Part shown: in pieces, positions 11,546 through 56,016 of the stretch
How positions within the stretch are numbered: the first letter of the stretch is position 1
Layout: every line of letters begins with the position of its first letter
Assembly: GCF_040581405.1 (NCBI RefSeq)
Contig: NZ_CP137157.1
Location: 2,313,001-2,377,000 of the forward strand
DNA from: Komagataeibacter sucrofermentans DSM 15973
GTDB lineage: Bacteria > Pseudomonadota > Alphaproteobacteria > Acetobacterales > Acetobacteraceae
Direction: 5' to 3'
DNA length: 64,000 nucleotides
Notes under the pieces: model-generated
Told to the model about the DNA's origin: nothing
What the model saw: only the letters and a program-made list of their open reading frames with translations
Database searches by the model: none
Position numbers and translations under genes: made by a program

Positions 11546-11608
11546 GCCTGCATGCACAGCGCCCGCAAGCCATGCAGGGTGAGACTGCTTGCTGACCGGC
11601 CTGGCCAA

Positions 11609-11652
11609 ATGCCACCCTTTTGAAAAAAGGCGACACCCAAAAACCTTTCCTG
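11609..11652 (+). repeat. Dispersed intergenic repeat, partial copy (hairpin 2 plus 3' flank)
   Basis: GCCACCCTTTTGAAAAAAGG with the flank CGACACCCAAAAACC matches the second half of the complete copy at 36745-36829, in the same orientation. The GCC(G/A)CC...GG(C)G(A/G)C stem is imperfect here. It lies between the Nudix gene stop and the htpG promoter. Confidence 0.65.
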
Positions 11653-12848: not shown

Positions 12849-12920
12849 ATAAAAGTTTCCGGGTGCCGCCTTTTTTCAAAAAGGCAGCGTTCTTTAAAGC
12901 TTTTTGGAGGAAAGCTTTAC
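12849..12920 (-). repeat. Dispersed intergenic repeat, near-complete copy, inverted
   Basis: Read on the minus strand it gives GGTAAAGCTTTCC..AAAAAGCTTT (hairpin 1), then GCTGCCTTTTTGAAAAAAGG (hairpin 2), then a CACCCGGAAACTTTTATTC flank. This is the same layout as the full copy at 36745-36829 but lacks the outer 5' flank. Its edge GGTAAAGC supplies the TAA stop codon (12917-12919) of the upstream UbiC-fold gene. Confidence 0.75.
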
Positions 12921-13588
12921 CTCTGGCCCTGAGGCGTAAAAGCGAGGGTCTGGTCGGTATAGGTTTCCACCACCTCGCTGAACGGACGGCCCTGGCCGTC
13001 ACGCAGTACCGCGCGCTGGCGCACGATTTCAGCCGGAGCCACGATCATCGTGCCGCCCTGCCCCACAACCGGTCCCGGCCATGGCGACCACAGCCGCGTA
13101 AACTCCAGCCGCTCGCGCGTAAAGTGCAGCGGCGCCACCACATGGCCGAAGGATGTGTCGGTTCCCTCCAGCGTGGCGTTCATCTGCGGGGTCAGCAGGG
13201 CGGGCACATACCAGTTATCCGCCACCGAAAGCACATATGGCCCGCAGACCAGCCGCACCTGCCGGTGCCGCACCGGTTGCGCAGCACTCACGCCCAGATC
13301 GGCCCGCACCCGCGCGGGCACGGGGTCGGGCTGCGGCAGGGCGACCTTCTGCGCCACGACAACGGGGCGTGCTGCCATATGGTGGGTAGCGCACCAGTCC
13401 TCCAGCGCCAGCGTGGCGCTGGGGTGGGTGAGCAGGGTTATTTCCAGTTCCTGCACGCTCATCATCAGGCGCGCGCGCTCGGCTGGCGTATCGGACCATG
13501 AAAGGCTGGCCGCCAGCATGGGGCTGGCAGGCAGCAGGCCCGCCCCCATCATCGCCGCTACACATACCCCCCTGCCCATGACATCCAC
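12917..13588 (-). CDS. Exported protein with chorismate-lyase (UbiC/UTRA)-like fold
   Basis: This 223-residue protein begins with a signal-peptide-like segment (VCVAAMMGAGLLPASPMLAAS). The mature part has an arrangement reminiscent of chorismate pyruvate-lyase: VRLVCGPYVLSVADNWYVPALL, then LEGTDTSFGHVVAPLHFTRE, and a C-terminal RAVLRDGQGRPFSEVVETY. Whether it has lyase activity is unknown; export would be unusual for UbiC, so a different ligand is possible. Its stop codon lies inside a dispersed repeat. It ends 2 nt... upstream spacing to bglAx is 2 nt, so the two genes are probably co-transcribed with bglAx first. Confidence 0.6.
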   Translation of the reverse strand: MDVMGRGVCVAAMMGAGLLPASPMLAASLSWSDTPAERARLMMSVQELEITLLTHPSATLALEDWCATHHMAARPVVVAQKVALPQPDPVPARVRADLGVSAAQPVRHRQVRLVCGPYVLSVADNWYVPALLTPQMNATLEGTDTSFGHVVAPLHFTRERLEFTRLWSPWPGPVVGQGGTMIVAPAEIVRQRAVLRDGQGRPFSEVVETYTDQTLAFTPQGQR

Positions 13589-29740: not shown

Positions 29741-29805
29741 CGGTCACAATGACGTTGAGCCGGATTACAGCTGCCCCCATCCCTCTGGTACAGGAGTCCG
29801 TTGCA

Positions 29806-30702
29806 ATGGCCTCTTCTGCTCTTATTTCCGGTCCCGAAAACAACCTGTCCAAATATCTTCGGGATATCCGCAAATTCCCCATGCTCTCCCCCGAGGAGGA
29901 GCTTCGCCTTTCCCATCGCTGGAAGGACAAGGGCGACACTGAAGCCGCCCACAAGCTTGTCACCTCCCACCTGCGCCTCGTGGCCAAGATCGCCATGGGC
30001 TATCGTGGTTATGGCCTGCCGGTGGGCGAACTGATCAGCGAAGGCAATATCGGGATGATGCAGGCCGTGCGCCGCTTCGACCCCGATCGGGGCTTCCGCC
30101 TGGCCACATATGCCATGTGGTGGATCCGTGCCGCGATACAGGAATACATCCTGCATAGCTGGTCACTGGTGAAGATCGGCACAACCGCTGCCCAGAAAAA
30201 ACTTTTCTTCAACCTGCGTCGCCTCAAGGGCCAGATGCAGGCCATTGACGATGGCGACCTCCAGCCCGAGCAGGTCAACAAGATCGCCCAGTCCCTCGGC
30301 GTGCCCGAGCAGGACGTGGTGAACATGAACCGCCGCCTCGCCGCCCCCGACCACAGCCTGAACGCGCCGCTGCGCATGGATGGCGAGGGCGAGTGGCAGG
30401 ACTGGCTGGTGGATGACAACGACAACCAGGAACAGACCCTGGCCGAGAGCGAGGAATATTCCGGCCGTCAGGCGCTTCTGGCCAATGCCATGAAGTCGCT
30501 CAACGATCGCGAGCGCCACATCCTGACCGAGCGCAGGCTCAAGGATGAACCGGCCACGCTTGAAGAGCTGTCGCATGTCTACAACATCTCGCGCGAGCGG
30601 GTGCGCCAGATCGAGGTCCGCGCCTTTGAAAAGGTGCAGGCCGCGATGAAGACCGAAGTCGCATCACGCCGCGCCCGACATGCCGAGGGGGCTGAAGCCT
30701 GA
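29806..30702 (+). CDS. rpoH: RNA polymerase sigma-32 (heat-shock) factor
   Basis: RpoH directs RNA polymerase to heat-shock promoters. The 298-residue product has sigma regions in order: 1.2 (NLSKYLRDIRKFPMLSPEEE), 2 (HLRLVAKIAMGYRGYGLPVG and RFDPDRGFRLATYAMWWIRA), the RpoH-box region AQKKLFFNLRRLK, region 3, and region 4 with the helix-turn-helix SHVYNISRERVRQIEVRAFE. The frame is open to 29749, but ATG at 29806 (MASSALISG) has AGGAG nine bases upstream and is chosen. It is preceded by a 240-nt structured leader and followed by a terminator. htpG in this window carries a matching promoter. Confidence 0.95.
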   Translation: MASSALISGPENNLSKYLRDIRKFPMLSPEEELRLSHRWKDKGDTEAAHKLVTSHLRLVAKIAMGYRGYGLPVGELISEGNIGMMQAVRRFDPDRGFRLATYAMWWIRAAIQEYILHSWSLVKIGTTAAQKKLFFNLRRLKGQMQAIDDGDLQPEQVNKIAQSLGVPEQDVVNMNRRLAAPDHSLNAPLRMDGEGEWQDWLVDDNDNQEQTLAESEEYSGRQALLANAMKSLNDRERHILTERRLKDEPATLEELSHVYNISRERVRQIEVRAFEKVQAAMKTEVASRRARHAEGAEA

Positions 30703-30715
30703 AGTAAAGGCGACG

Positions 30716-30757
30716 GTCTTTAAAGCTTTCTGGAAAAAGCTTTACCAAACACTTTTA
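30716..30757 (-). repeat. Dispersed intergenic repeat, half copy, inverted
   Basis: Read on the minus strand it gives AAAAGTGTTTGGTAAAGC, then hairpin 1 (AAAGCTTTTTCCAGAAAGCT). This matches the first half of the copy at 36745-36829. The second hairpin is absent. It lies just after the rpoH stop and before its terminator. Confidence 0.65.
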
Positions 30758-30762
30758 AAATC

Positions 30763-30796
30763 AAAGCCCCGCGTGCCATTGGCTGCGGGGCTTTTT
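30763..30796 (+). terminator. Terminator of rpoH
   Basis: AAAGCCCCGC (30763-30772) pairs perfectly with GCGGGGCTTT, closing with TTTTT. It is 60 nt after the rpoH stop. Confidence 0.9.
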
Positions 30797-30828
30797 CTTT
30801 AAGATGTCACGCCTGCTGAAAACAGTAA

Positions 30829-30890
30829 GACGTTTAAAGCTTCAAAGGAGTGCTGCCTTCTGGCAAAACGGCAGCACTCCAAAACGCCTG
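30829..30890. repeat. Hairpin at the rpoH/purA convergence, possibly a diverged dispersed repeat
   Basis: GGAGTGCTGCC (30847-30857) and GGCAGCACTCC (30870-30880) form a perfect 11-bp stem. It is preceded by GTTTAAAGCTTC and followed by AAAACG, features that recall the dispersed element family. It lies 21 nt beyond the purA stop and can act as its terminator, although the T-run is short. Confidence 0.5.
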
Positions 30891-30901
30891 TTCCGCTCCG
30901 A

Positions 30902-36739: not shown

Positions 36740-36744
36740 AAATC

Positions 36745-36829
36745 AAAAGTTTTTGGTGAAGCTTTTTTTCAAAAAGCTTCGAAAGAGCGCCGCCTTTTTG
36801 AAAAAAGGCGGCACCCAAGAACTTTTATC
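36745..36829 (+). repeat. Dispersed intergenic repeat, complete reference copy (three-way junction)
   Basis: The outer strands AAAAGTTTTTGGTG (36745-36758) and CACCCAAGAACTTTT (36812-36826) pair over 14 bp with one bulged C. They enclose hairpin 1 (GAAGCTTTTTTTCAAAAAGC, then TTC) and hairpin 2 (GCCGCCTTTTTGAAAAAAGG, then CGGC). It fills the whole gap between the convergent mazG and IMPase-family genes and may also end both transcripts. Confidence 0.85.
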
Positions 36830-36831
36830 TT

Positions 36832-37668
36832 TCAGGGAGCCGTCAGCAACAGGTCGTGCAGCGCCTGCCAGCTTGCGCGATCAGGCGCATAGAGCAGCCC
36901 GCCGCTACGGTCGGTCACGCGATAGGGCGCGCCATCAAAATGGGCGCTGTAGCCACCGGCTTCCTGATGGATCAGCCAGCCCGCCAGATGGTCCCACGGC
37001 AGGGTGCGGTTAAACAGCAGGAAATGGCAGCGCCCATCGACCAGCATGAGGTATTCATGCGCCGCACAACGGAAATCCCACGATCCCGCCACCTTGGGCA
37101 GGTTATGGGTCACCACATCACGCACGGGGGCTGGCAGGTAGCGCCATGAGGCATTGCCCGCCATCTCATGCGCGGGCACGGCGGGGGCAACCTGCAGGCG
37201 GCGCTCGCCCCCCTTGCCATCATCAAGCCACGCCCCCTGCCCGCGCGCGGCTATGGCCGCGATATTGCAGATGGGGTCCACAATCGCCCCGCCCACAACT
37301 TCGCCACCCGATACGGCAGACACCATCACGCCAAACAGCGGCACGCCCGCCGCGTAATTGGCGGTGCCATCAATCGGGTCGATGACAAAGGCCAGTTCAG
37401 CCGTGGCCAGGCCATCAAGCAGGTCAGGACTGGCGGCCACCGCCTCCTCCCCCACCACGAGGGCTTTGGGCCAGGCGGCCTGCAAGGCTGCGGTGAGGTC
37501 ACGCTCGGTGGCTTCATCCGCCACGGTCACGATATCCATCGGCCCGCTCTTGCTGCGAATATCGGCACGGTCAAGGCAACGGAAGGACGGCATGACATGG
37601 CGCTGTGCTGCTTCACGCATCATCGCCACCACCTTGTGCATATCCGCCAGTGTGATCCGTTGCGTCAT
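36832..37668 (-). CDS. Inositol monophosphatase family phosphatase
   Basis: This 278-residue Mg2+/Li+-dependent phosphatase carries the family motifs: VVGEEAVAASPD (metal-binding Glu), FVIDPIDGTANYAAG and the C-terminal LPWDHLAGWLIHQEAGGYSA. Family members act on inositol-1-phosphate, histidinol phosphate or PAP. Alphaproteobacterial members of this kind are often annotated as HisN or SuhB, and the substrate cannot be decided from sequence. The start is ATG at 37668. The stop lies 3 nt from a dispersed repeat; convergent with mazG. Confidence 0.85.
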   Translation of the reverse strand: MTQRITLADMHKVVAMMREAAQRHVMPSFRCLDRADIRSKSGPMDIVTVADEATERDLTAALQAAWPKALVVGEEAVAASPDLLDGLATAELAFVIDPIDGTANYAAGVPLFGVMVSAVSGGEVVGGAIVDPICNIAAIAARGQGAWLDDGKGGERRLQVAPAVPAHEMAGNASWRYLPAPVRDVVTHNLPKVAGSWDFRCAAHEYLMLVDGRCHFLLFNRTLPWDHLAGWLIHQEAGGYSAHFDGAPYRVTDRSGGLLYAPDRASWQALHDLLLTAP

Positions 37669-37811
37669 TGCCGCCTCCGCCCCTGTCCGTTGTTCAACCC
37701 GTCATTCCTGCGCCGGCGGGCGTCATTTTTCCACCCCGCGCGCCATCATGACCTGACCATCCAGAAAGCCTGCCTGTGCGGCCAGTTTTAAAAGACTCCC
37801 GCAACCATAAG

Positions 37812-37897
37812 GAAGTTTCTGATGAAGCTTTTTTTGGCAAGCTTCAGGAAATGCCGCCTTTTTGAAAAGAAGGCGGCATCCAGAAACTTCTCTTGAT
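37812..37897 (+). repeat. Dispersed intergenic repeat, complete second copy
   Basis: The outer strands GAAGTTTCTGATG and CATCCAGAAACTTC pair over 13 bp with the same single bulged C as the copy at 36745-36829. They enclose hairpin 1 (GAAGCTTTTTTTGGCAAGCT, then TC) and hairpin 2 (GCCGCCTTTTTGAAAAGAAG, then GCGGC). Base pairs differ from the first copy by compensatory changes (G-C to A-T, T-A to C-G). It ends 10 nt beyond the hflX stop. Confidence 0.85.
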
Positions 37898-37907
37898 CCC
37901 GCAGTCC

Positions 37908-39218
37908 CTAATCGACCAGGCAGGTCACGACGCGACCGAACTGCATCTCGAAACGCGCACGGTTGGCAGGTGAAAGGCGCACGGTCATCTCGGCCCCTTC
38001 CTCCCCATCGGCACGCTCGGTCACCTCGCCATGCTCGTGCAGCCAGGCCATGGCCGCGCCCTCGGTTATGGGCACGCGGTAGCGCACGACTTCCATCGCG
38101 CGGGTCATGCGCTCGTCAATCGCGGCCAGCAGGTCGGGCAGGCCATCGCCGGTAATGGCGGAAATGACCACGTTGCCCGGTCGCGCGCCCACGGCGTCGC
38201 GCCCGCCAACGAGATCGGCCTTGTTCAGCACCTCGATCACACGCCCCTGCCAGTCGGCCTCGATCGTGCCGTTGCGCGCCATGCCCTCGAGCACCTCGAT
38301 CACGTCATTGCGCTGCGAGGCGCTATCGGGGTGCGAGACATCGCGCACATGCAGGATGATGTCGGCCTCGGCCACCTCTTCAAGCGTGGCGCGGAAGGCG
38401 GCGATGAGTTCGGTCGGCAGGTCACTGATGAAGCCCACCGTATCGGACAGGATCACCCGCCGCCCCGATGGCAGCTGGATGCCGCGCATGGTGGGGTCCA
38501 GCGTGGCAAAAAGCTGGTCCTGCGCATACACGCTCGCCCCGGTCAGGGCATTGAACAGGGTGGACTTGCCCGCATTGGTGTAACCCACCAGCGCCACAAT
38601 GGGGAACGGCACGCGCCTGCGGGCCTGCCGGTGCAGCCCGCGCGTGCGGCGCACCTGCTCAAGCTCGCGCTTGAGGCGCACGATCCGGTCGCCGATCATG
38701 CGGCGGTCGGCCTCGATCTGCGTCTCGCCGGGGCCGCCAAGAAAGCCGAAGCCACCGCGCTGGCGCTCAAGATGGGTCCAGGTGCGCACAAGGCGGCTGC
38801 GCTGGTATTCCAGATGGGCGAGTTCGACCTGCAGCGTGCCTTCACGCGTGGCCGCGCGCTCGCCAAAAATATCAAGGATCAGCGCGGTCCGGTCGATCAC
38901 CTTGCAGCCCAGCGCGCGCTCGAGGTTGCGCTGCTGCACCGGGGTGAGCCGGGAATCGATAATGACAACGGTGATGTTGTCGGCCTTGACCGTCTCTTTA
39001 AGCGAATCGACCTGACCGCCGCCAAGCAGGGTAGCAGGCCTGCGGGCGCGTAGCAGCAGCACCGCCTGACACACCACCACCAGCCCGATGGAGGCGGCAA
39101 GTCCCACCGCTTCCTCCAGCCGGGCTTCGGCCGCGCGGGCATCATCGTGCCTGTCAGGGCGCTCCCATGGCAGGATGACAGCGGCGCGCGTGGCGGATGA
39201 AGGCGCCGCCACCGTCAC
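37908..39218 (-). CDS. hflX: Ribosome-associated GTPase HflX
   Basis: HflX (436 residues) is a GTPase that splits stalled 70S ribosomes, especially under heat stress. The N-terminal HflX domain contains [16 protein letters not shown] and [21 protein letters not shown] coiled segment with [19 protein letters not shown] follows. The G domain has G1 [18 protein letters not shown]3 [12 protein letters not shown] and G4 NKAD. ATG at 39218 overlaps the hfq stop by 4 nt, so hfq and hflX are coupled, as in many proteobacteria. A complete dispersed repeat lies directly downstream. Confidence 0.94.
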
Positions 39219-48382: not shown

Positions 48383-48406
48383 GGCAGGGATAAAACGGAC
48401 AGTAAC

Positions 48407-48463
48407 TGTTTTGGGGGCCGCTTTTTTTCAGGGAGGGAAAGGCGGCACCCGAAAACTTTTATC
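48407..48463 (+). repeat. Dispersed intergenic repeat, partial copy (hairpin 2 and flanks)
   Basis: GTTTTGGGGGCCGC...GGCGGCACCCGAAAAC forms a single stem joining the outer flank and hairpin 2 of the family. It is followed by TTTTATC, as in the complete copy. It occupies the gap between the convergent ispDF and ATP12 genes. Confidence 0.7.
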
Positions 48464-54550: not shown

Positions 54551-54583
54551 GGATTTCGATATATCCACACAATAAAACGAATA

Positions 54584-54624
54584 AACGTGTTTGGGTGCCG
54601 CCTTGTTTTCAGGAAAGGCGGCAT
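54584..54624 (-). repeat. Dispersed intergenic repeat, partial copy, inverted
   Basis: On the minus strand GCCGCCTTTCCTGAAAACAA, then GGCGGCACCCAAACACG, matches hairpin 2 and the 3' flank of the complete copies. It lies between the AT-rich orphan and the end of the MBOAT gene, where it could end the MBOAT transcript. Confidence 0.7.
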
Positions 54625-54639
54625 TGCCTGCACAGGCTT

Positions 54640-56016
54640 TCAGAACTGGAAATAGATGAACGCTTCTGGCGGCCTGCCCCCCACCAGAAACACCAGCAGC
54701 ACGAAAGCGACCCCCGCCGCCACCGCCAGCCAGGGTGTGGGCCGCATGCGCTCCAGCACCATCTGCTGCGAGGCGGGACCGATGACCGCAATGACCAGCG
54801 CAAGCCCCAGCACCACGGGGTGGCCCACCGCCACGCCACCGCCGCCATGCGCGCCCAGCATTCCCGCCAGCATGCGCCCTGCCGTGGGCAGGTCGGCAGC
54901 GCGGAACACTACCCATGTCAACAACACGAAGGTCATGGTCAACCCGTAGCCCATGCCCCGTGGCAAAGTGCGCCCGGTGCGGTCCCACCCGTGAGCGGTG
55001 GCGAGGGCTGCGCCATGCAGCAGGCCCCAGACCACGAAATTCCACCCCGCACCGTGCCACAGACCGGCCAGCCCCATGGTGGCCATGACGTTCGCCGCCT
55101 GCCGCGCGGGCGCACAGCGGTTGCCGCCCAGCGGAATATAGACGTAATCACGCAGGAAGCGTGACAGCGTCATGTGCCACCGCCGCCAGAAGTCACGCAC
55201 CGATACGGCCCGGTAAGGCGCATTGAAATTGAACGGCAGGCGGATGCCCATCATCAGCGCCATGCCGATCGCCATGTCCGAATAGCCGGAAAAATCGAAA
55301 TAGATCTGGAGCATGAAGCTCACAGCCGCCAGCCACGCCGCCCCCAGCGCCGGGGCATGGCCCATATGGGCTGCCTCGAACACCGGCGTGCACAGGCCGC
55401 CCAGCGTATCGGCCAGCCCGACCTTCTTGCCCAGCCCCAGCAGCAGCAGCAGGCCGCCCCGGCCAAGGTTTTCCCACATGGCGGGCCCACGCGGGCTGGC
55501 ATCGAACTGCGGAATCAGTTCGTTATGCCGCACGATGGGGCCTGCCACGAGTTGCGGGAAGAAGGTCACGAACTCCACAAAATCCGCCAGCCGGTAAACC
55601 CGCGCCTGCCCACGCCCGAGGTCAACGAGGTAGGATACTTTCTGGAACACGAAAAATGACAGCCCCAAGGGCAAAATCACCGGCCATGGCGCAGGCGCGC
55701 GCCCCATGGCGGCCAGCACGCAGCCCGCCAGCCAGAATGCGTATTTGAAGCCGAACAGCACCGCCAGATTGCCCGCAATGCCCAGCCACAGCCAGCCCCG
55801 CCACCGCGTGCGCCCCCACAATACGGCAACGCCCTGGCTGAAGCCGGTCATGCCCAGCAGAAAGGGCACGAACCGCCAGTCCCACAACCCGTAAAAGACA
55901 AGGGAGGCCGCGATGAGCACGGCCTGCCGGGCGCCCCTGCTGGCGGCTACGACATAATACAGCCCCAGCACCACCGGCAGGAAGACGAGCAGGAAAGGCT
56001 GGCCCGCAAACAGCAT
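54640..56016 (-). CDS. MBOAT-family membrane O-acyltransferase (AlgI/WssH-like)
   Basis: This 458-residue polytopic membrane protein with about ten hydrophobic helices resembles AlgI/DltB-type acyltransferases, which acetylate exopolysaccharides or cell-wall polymers. Signatures are VFQKVSYLVDLGRGQARVYR, FFPQLVAGPIVRHNELIPQF, FDFSGYSDMAIGMALMMGIR, RDFWRRWHMTLSRFLRDYVY and the catalytic His in GLWHGAGWNFVVWGLLHG. The usual SGNH-type partner (AlgJ/AlgX) is not adjacent, so the acetylation target is unclear; cellulose or acetan-like polymer are possibilities. Its ATG directly follows the stop of the flavoprotein gene (TGAATG), so they are co-transcribed. Confidence 0.88.
   Translation of the reverse strand: MLFAGQPFLLVFLPVVLGLYYVVAASRGARQAVLIAASLVFYGLWDWRFVPFLLGMTGFSQGVAVLWGRTRWRGWLWLGIAGNLAVLFGFKYAFWLAGCVLAAMGRAPAPWPVILPLGLSFFVFQKVSYLVDLGRGQARVYRLADFVEFVTFFPQLVAGPIVRHNELIPQFDASPRGPAMWENLGRGGLLLLLGLGKKVGLADTLGGLCTPVFEAAHMGHAPALGAAWLAAVSFMLQIYFDFSGYSDMAIGMALMMGIRLPFNFNAPYRAVSVRDFWRRWHMTLSRFLRDYVYIPLGGNRCAPARQAANVMATMGLAGLWHGAGWNFVVWGLLHGAALATAHGWDRTGRTLPRGMGYGLTMTFVLLTWVVFRAADLPTAGRMLAGMLGAHGGGGVAVGHPVVLGLALVIAVIGPASQQMVLERMRPTPWLAVAAGVAFVLLVFLVGGRPPEAFIYFQF

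Follow-up and report, generated by a model that had tools for sequence, protein, structure and literature searches.

Introduction

What is the family of folded intergenic elements that recurs along the genome of Komagataeibacter sucrofermentans DSM 15973, how did it spread, and what might its copies do at the ends of genes? An earlier note on a 64,000-nucleotide stretch of this genome (the window; contig NZ_CP137157.1, positions 2,313,001 to 2,377,000) had listed nine such copies. It read them as a REP/MITE-like family whose three-way-junction structure is selected, perhaps spread by a transposase outside the window and used as terminators. Komagataeibacter is used for bacterial cellulose production, where terminator parts are of practical use. 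No description of the family was found in the open-licence literature, going by titles and abstracts, and the part of PMC4686929 that was available holds nothing relevant to it.

Results

In a search of 464 kb, a profile HMM finds all nine copies of the earlier note, scoring them at 22.1 to 88.9 bits with E-values from 4.4e-5 down to 6.5e-26; the matches start at 11608, 12849, 30706, 30836, 36744, 37811, 48417, 54235 and 54581. Hereby, the 31 training copies include those at 36742 and 37808, the other seven window copies being outside that set. The copies, termed cores in the following, and the two genes that enclose the highest-scoring one are given below (CM, covariance model; nhmmer, profile HMM; gene names from reading the translation).

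11608..11648, plus strand, partial core with hairpin 2 and right outer arm; nhmmer 29.6 bits
12849..12921, minus strand, near-complete core; CM 52.2 bits, nhmmer 62.3 bits (model positions 14-86)
30703..30759, minus strand, partial core with hairpin 1 and left outer arm; CM 24.7 bits, nhmmer 35.9 bits
30825..30892, plus strand, diverged and decayed core without hairpin 1; CM 20.6 bits
35945-36739, plus strand, MazG-like gene
36742..36829, plus strand, complete core; CM 94.9 bits, nhmmer 88.9 bits
36832-37668, minus strand, inositol-monophosphatase-like gene
37808..37894, plus strand, complete core; CM 78.9 bits
48401..48463, plus strand, core without hairpin 1 in a convergent gap; CM 18.2 bits, nhmmer 22.1 bits
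54235..54286, minus strand, partial core with hairpin 1 and left outer arm; nhmmer 29.4 bits
54580..54645, minus strand, partial core with right outer arm and hairpin 2; nhmmer 27.3 bits

For both complete copies, folding reproduces the three-way junction with its single unpaired C. RNA folding yields -37.8 and -41.1 kcal/mol (z -5.6 and -6.7), with none of 200 shuffles as good, and DNA folding of the 36742 copy yields -26.2 (z -5.65). Rfam at the gathering threshold reports two tRNAs only across the window. The core at 36742..36829 occupies the whole 92-nt gap between its convergent neighbours; at this MazG-like site an element is seen by eye in 12 of 14 named Komagataeibacter, two of the 12 carrying it in opposite orientation and one in collapsed form. 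The named relatives of this locus place the organism in Komagataeibacter, close to K. xylinus and K. nataicola. The core at 37808..37894 lies 15 nt past the 3' end of gene 37908-39218 (minus strand), while 12849..12921, without its left outer arm, sits at the stop codon of gene 12917-13588 (minus strand). The decayed core 30703..30759 adjoins the 3' end of gene 29749-30702 (plus strand), and 54580..54645 extends to that of gene 54640-56016 (minus strand). With genes called by our own ORF scorer, which gives a coding share of 0.86-0.88 in the stretches of this genome, the neighbours of the nine copies are convergent in five cases, tandem in three and apparently divergent in one, copy 54235, which adjoins a doubtful small ORF. 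Two reduced copies have fuller counterparts elsewhere: the site of 11608..11648 holds a near-complete core in the relative G004, and that of 30825..30892 holds one in both G004 and the more distant G013. As a separate observation, a GC-rich hairpin with a T run at 30766-30796, resembling a canonical terminator, sits between two decayed cores and comes after the gene at 29749-30702, which reads as sigma-factor-like.

Further copies exist beyond the window, in line with the expectation of the earlier note. In the own genome (G000; a chromosome contig of 2.95 Mb and four smaller contigs) there are at least 150 covariance-model matches at E<1e-3, all 150 scored candidates being matches and one of them lying off the chromosome contig. 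Complete reading of 855 kb of the chromosome gives 118 copies of at least 20 bits. Core density is 4.0 per 100 kb at 1.3-1.7 Mb, opposite the contig start, versus 13.8 in 2.31-2.95 plus 0-0.22 Mb, and the occupancy of convergent gaps is 6/24 versus 57/80 in the same regions. All 19 Komagataeibacter genomes searched match, with 33 to at least 143 copies each. Within the Acetobacteraceae, with 17 candidates scored per genome, matches at E<=1e-6 occur in 31 of 249 genomes, spread over 15 of 102 genera, and G102, from a second genus (g85), is as rich as G000 with at least 150 copies, all 150 scored candidates again matching. None of 12 genomes of other families contains a copy, and the phage records searched gave no match.

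The intact element is 162 bp long and carries 15-bp terminal inverted repeats (TIRs), GAGACTGTTTGAAAA; it is multicopy and offers no room for a transposase. Exact matches to the TIR 15-mer number 149, spread over 18 of the 19 genus genomes, whereas a reversed-pattern control has 0. Nineteen fetched copies, picked for having both TIRs exact, measure 161-165 bp; 18 of them have identical 3-nt flanks (11 TTA, 3 TAA, 2 TGA, 1 TCA and 1 ATA), which follow TNA in 17 of the 19. The 37 TIR rows examined reduce to 33 distinct places, since four rows repeat another, and 31 of these enclose a core. In G005 all 20 places do so, including one that also belongs to the first set. Two plasmid copies, one being the only plasmid-contig copy among the 150 and the other from Novacetimonas hansenii, have perfect inverted repeats with TTA on both sides, and second-genus genomes contain the same MITE. 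Since TIRs and TNA duplications surround it, the ~86-nt core is therefore the body of a MITE, and the mobility of the element is well supported. Of the earlier designation "REP/MITE-like", the MITE half stands and becomes specific through the 162-bp unit, its TIRs and its TNA duplications; the REP-like half is not supported for this genome.

Most cores have lost these ends. In G000 nearly all copies retain the core while the TIR ends are gone, and a recognisable arm is absent from three quarters of the full-length cores. Arm remnants accompany 26 of 103 full-length cores from four stretches versus 4 of 117 intergenic control sites, and both arms accompany 9 of 103 versus 0 of 117, in a set that includes own and G004 copies with shared ancestry. 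One example is the G004 core orthologous to 11608..11648: compared with the MITE arms, its flanks reach scores of 29 (right arm) and 30 (left arm). That the core appears to outlast the arms is partly an effect of core-based searching. Two further arrangements were observed. In L307 (3745-4790; G015) a 1-kb element taken for an insertion sequence proved to be a cytochrome-like gene between two MITE copies whose outer TIRs are exact, an arrangement like that of a composite transposon. A different element of ~110-142 bp with a GAGACTGTTTGAAAA end and without the core occurs in L362, L389 and L391 (G214, another genus), and in L362 it abuts a core.

An autonomous transposase with the MITE ends was not recognised, the TIR places having been checked for cores and part of them for transposase ORFs, with the ORFs of one relic alone compared with Pfam. 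This IS5-type relic, beside a TIR in L282, has two ORFs, one of which matches DDE_Tnp_1 below the curated cut-off; it was rejected as the autonomous partner because the six relatives examined have other ends. The IS630 transposase beside plasmid copy H1 was dismissed as a mere neighbour, the TIRs enclosing just the 162-bp unit. The RAYT partner considered in the earlier note finds no counterpart either: PF01797 (Y1 transposase, includes RAYTs) has 0 matches in the own genome, with 5 of 14 control genomes positive. Spread by a transposase encoded outside the window is plausible.

Comparison with G004 (flanks ~93% identical) reveals a same-place copy for 44 of 47 syntenic own copies (15 more are without synteny) and, in the reverse direction, for 44 of 48 (three more without synteny); the three and four unmatched sites include no clean empty site. 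In the more distant G013, seven of 38 syntenic sites have a core and 31 are without (18 lack synteny), and in 160 kb of G102 six of 15 rows, representing four distinct copies, are at the same place (six lack synteny). The 37808 site is polymorphic, with a core in 7 of the 19 genus genomes: the right MITE end is attached in G015, a piece of it is left in G003, and the core stands alone in the other five. We infer a gain here rather than a loss; the exact pre-insertion sequence was not recovered at this site. Copies can also differ in orientation, as seen between own genome and G004 for a full-length pair with both flanks alignable (joined-stretch position 332221) and at 162354, where the own copy is without one end; two other apparent flips are deletion products. 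At the MazG-like site two species carry the opposite orientation: K. xylinus NBRC 15237, where the flanks match, and K. rhaeticus, where they have diverged too far for a judgement. The simplest reading is inversion between the outer arms, and a second insertion replacing an earlier core may also account for the change. At 48401-48463, comparison with G004 shows two halves resembling opposite core orientations, which form a simple palindrome as from a template switch.

The proposed position next to gene 3' ends was found to hold beyond the window. The 118 cores in 855 kb comprise 69 in convergent, 36 in tandem and 7 in divergent gaps and 6 that are apparently genic; convergent gaps make up 18% of the bases in gaps of at least 80 bp, yet receive 62% of the intergenic copies (69/112). 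Among gaps of at least 80 bp, a core occupies 57 of 80 between convergent genes, 36 of 205 between tandem genes and 8 of 114 between divergent genes. In tandem gaps with at least 60 nt of slack (own stretches including 1.3-1.7 Mb), 30 of 39 cores are at most 40 nt from the upstream stop, compared to 10.0 expected, and none of 20000 simulations is as high. Copies that retain one or both TIRs in exact form are expected to be the youngest; there are 39 such copies (28 from G005), of which 16 are convergent, 14 tandem, 2 divergent, 7 unresolved and none genic. TNA sites in G000 are genic in 81% of cases, and the intergenic ones are 21% convergent and 34% divergent. Thus, the 3'-end bias is already established at an early stage, through a preference for certain targets or through rapid loss of insertions; either of these alone, target choice or removal of harmful insertions, could account for the location. 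Five of the 19 intact copies are at a stop codon, and 10 of 19 lie within 60 nt of another core, versus 18% of non-divergent intergenic positions in G000 (a cross-genome comparison).

On each strand the core reads as an A-tract, then the outer stem that encloses two hairpins, then UUUUAUC and U-rich flanking sequence; CUUUUAUC marks its edge. A U-tract score of at least 3, counted from the first T of the T-run, is reached on each strand by 45 of 68 copies versus 20 of 1461 intergenic background positions; this result depends on the register, a start one base earlier leaving 1 of 68 on the plus strand. Bidirectional intrinsic terminators between convergent genes have an A-tract, a stem and a U-tract on both strands, and the core shares this arrangement. 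Unlike them, it is an ~86-nt three-way junction common to a whole MITE-borne family, and its activity is putative; such junctions may escape terminator predictors built around short loops. Layout and location fit a bidirectional intrinsic terminator, and because of this anatomy and place termination is likely; use of the copies as terminators, as had been suggested, is plausible on these sequence grounds. A simple scan finds a canonical terminator in 42 of 71 core-holding versus 14 of 38 core-free convergent gaps of G000. In G013, only 6 of the 30 convergent gaps without a core show a canonical terminator, and replacement of cores by such terminators was mostly not seen; the core is thus no plain substitute for one.

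Beyond the compensatory changes noted for the outer stem, the paired columns covary significantly under column shuffling. In the 100 best matches (E<=1e-13, 89 stretches; the alignment is fitted to the model and includes orthologous copies), 89 cells are double-changed versus 43.2 in shuffles, and 20 pairs are changed on both sides versus 11.9, with 0 of 500 shuffles as high. Nine of the 16 outer-stem pairs show change on both sides. In the 31-copy set, covariation is modest. The claim that the structure is selected is hence only partly upheld: the covariation is real, but because intact mobile copies already have the fold it does not prove selection after insertion, the signs of which are weak. 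Orthologous cores are 87.2% identical, intergenic flanks 85.2% and third codon positions 86.0%; substitutions in the cores reveal no clear constraint and do not show strong purifying selection. Across 15 orthologous pairs, 13.2% of paired and 17.9% of unpaired columns changed, 32 of 70 one-sided changes retained a pair (34% expected), and 14 double changes occurred versus 5.5 expected, six of which still pair. Strand-specific wobble as a sign of RNA selection was rejected, there being no sense-strand bias in tandem gaps (G-U 76 versus A-C 74 in 39 copies). Gaps are rarer in orthologous cores, with 42 gap columns to 1258 aligned ones, than in the flanks, with 124 to 682. Selection may retain the core.

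Discussion

Taking the MITE, its duplications, its location, the loss of its ends and the covariation as observed, we consider the copies to be probably relics of a MITE with a bidirectional terminator-like hairpin that is tolerated or useful where transcription ends. The intact 162-bp element starts with a 15-bp TIR and a left arm, continues with the ~86-nt core and ends with a short right arm and the inverted TIR; it inserts with a 3-bp TNA duplication, presumably through a DDE transposase acting in trans, which we take to be of IS5 type from the TNA duplication. The near-symmetric core presents a terminator layout (A-tract, three-way-junction hairpin, U-tract) on either strand, and insertions would survive mainly at gene 3' ends, foremost in convergent gaps, where a two-sided transcription stop would be harmless or useful. 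Some lie in a stop codon, which the TNA duplication would restore. Over time, the transposon ends would erode while the core stays, sometimes collapsing to one hairpin or turning up reversed. A more far-reaching version is possible, although we hold it tentatively: the transposon may carry a two-way terminator as its cargo, which convergent genes of Komagataeibacter and of one or more further genera would have adopted as their usual 3' end, partly via insertions into stop codons that the TNA duplication rebuilds, the near-symmetric fold letting a copy turn in place without loss of function.

The copies could instead derive from a plain MITE without function, insertions elsewhere having been purged as they broke genes, promoters or operons, so that the cores are neutral debris at gene ends. 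The near equality of substitution in cores and third codon positions, the absent wobble bias, the location bias already present in TIR-bearing copies and the few canonical terminators where G013 is without cores all agree with such debris. We nevertheless regard it as unlikely in view of the filling of 57 of 80 convergent gaps of at least 80 bp, the U-tracts on each strand and the weak signs of pairing constraint in the 15 orthologous pairs, though just 6 of 14 double changes there still pair. Improbable is an origin as non-mobile terminators, homogenised by gene conversion or convergent in origin, with later capture of one of them by a MITE. Most cores do lack arms, and for just 2 of 15 cores is the ortholog the best match; yet non-orthologous cores are 83.1% identical over 86 nt and thus too alike for convergence, 26 of 103 cores have arm remnants, and the 37808 site shows core plus MITE end in one relative and the core alone in others.

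A REP/BIME-type element moved by a RAYT, with a role in mRNA stability or supercoiling, is largely contradicted by the TIR and duplication anatomy and appears highly improbable. A similar bias towards gene 3' ends is reported for REPs in the part of PMC3733652 that was available, which also describes REP/BIME as palindromic, present in many copies and targeted by insertion sequences, all of which the present family resembles. The same part states that CGTC repeats are missing in Acetobacteraceae. The ~86-nt core consensus has neither a GTAG nor a CGTC tag at either end, as opposed to a tagged palindrome of 20-40 bp; its larger 162-bp unit, the TIRs, the TNA duplications and the absence of the Y1 transposase (PF01797) from the own genome set the family further apart. 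Closer is the likeness to the RUP/NEMIS MITEs, which in the available part of PMC3733652 are likewise non-coding, 70-300 bp long, with 15-30 bp TIRs and many copies. Compared by description, the family differs from these in its body, a three-way junction with A- and U-tracts, in that most copies in G000 are without TIRs and keep the body, and in the high filling of convergent gaps.

The relics of this MITE provide a concrete case of a transposon scattering transcription-end-like signals across a bacterial genome, and related species with the same copy, without it or with it reversed make its effect on neighbouring genes directly testable. Cores are themselves interrupted in other genomes: an IS5-type insertion sequence starting GGGCCTGTTGGGAATTA splits the first hairpin in L330 and L335 (G011, G005) and in L367 (G170), as if the core served as its target.
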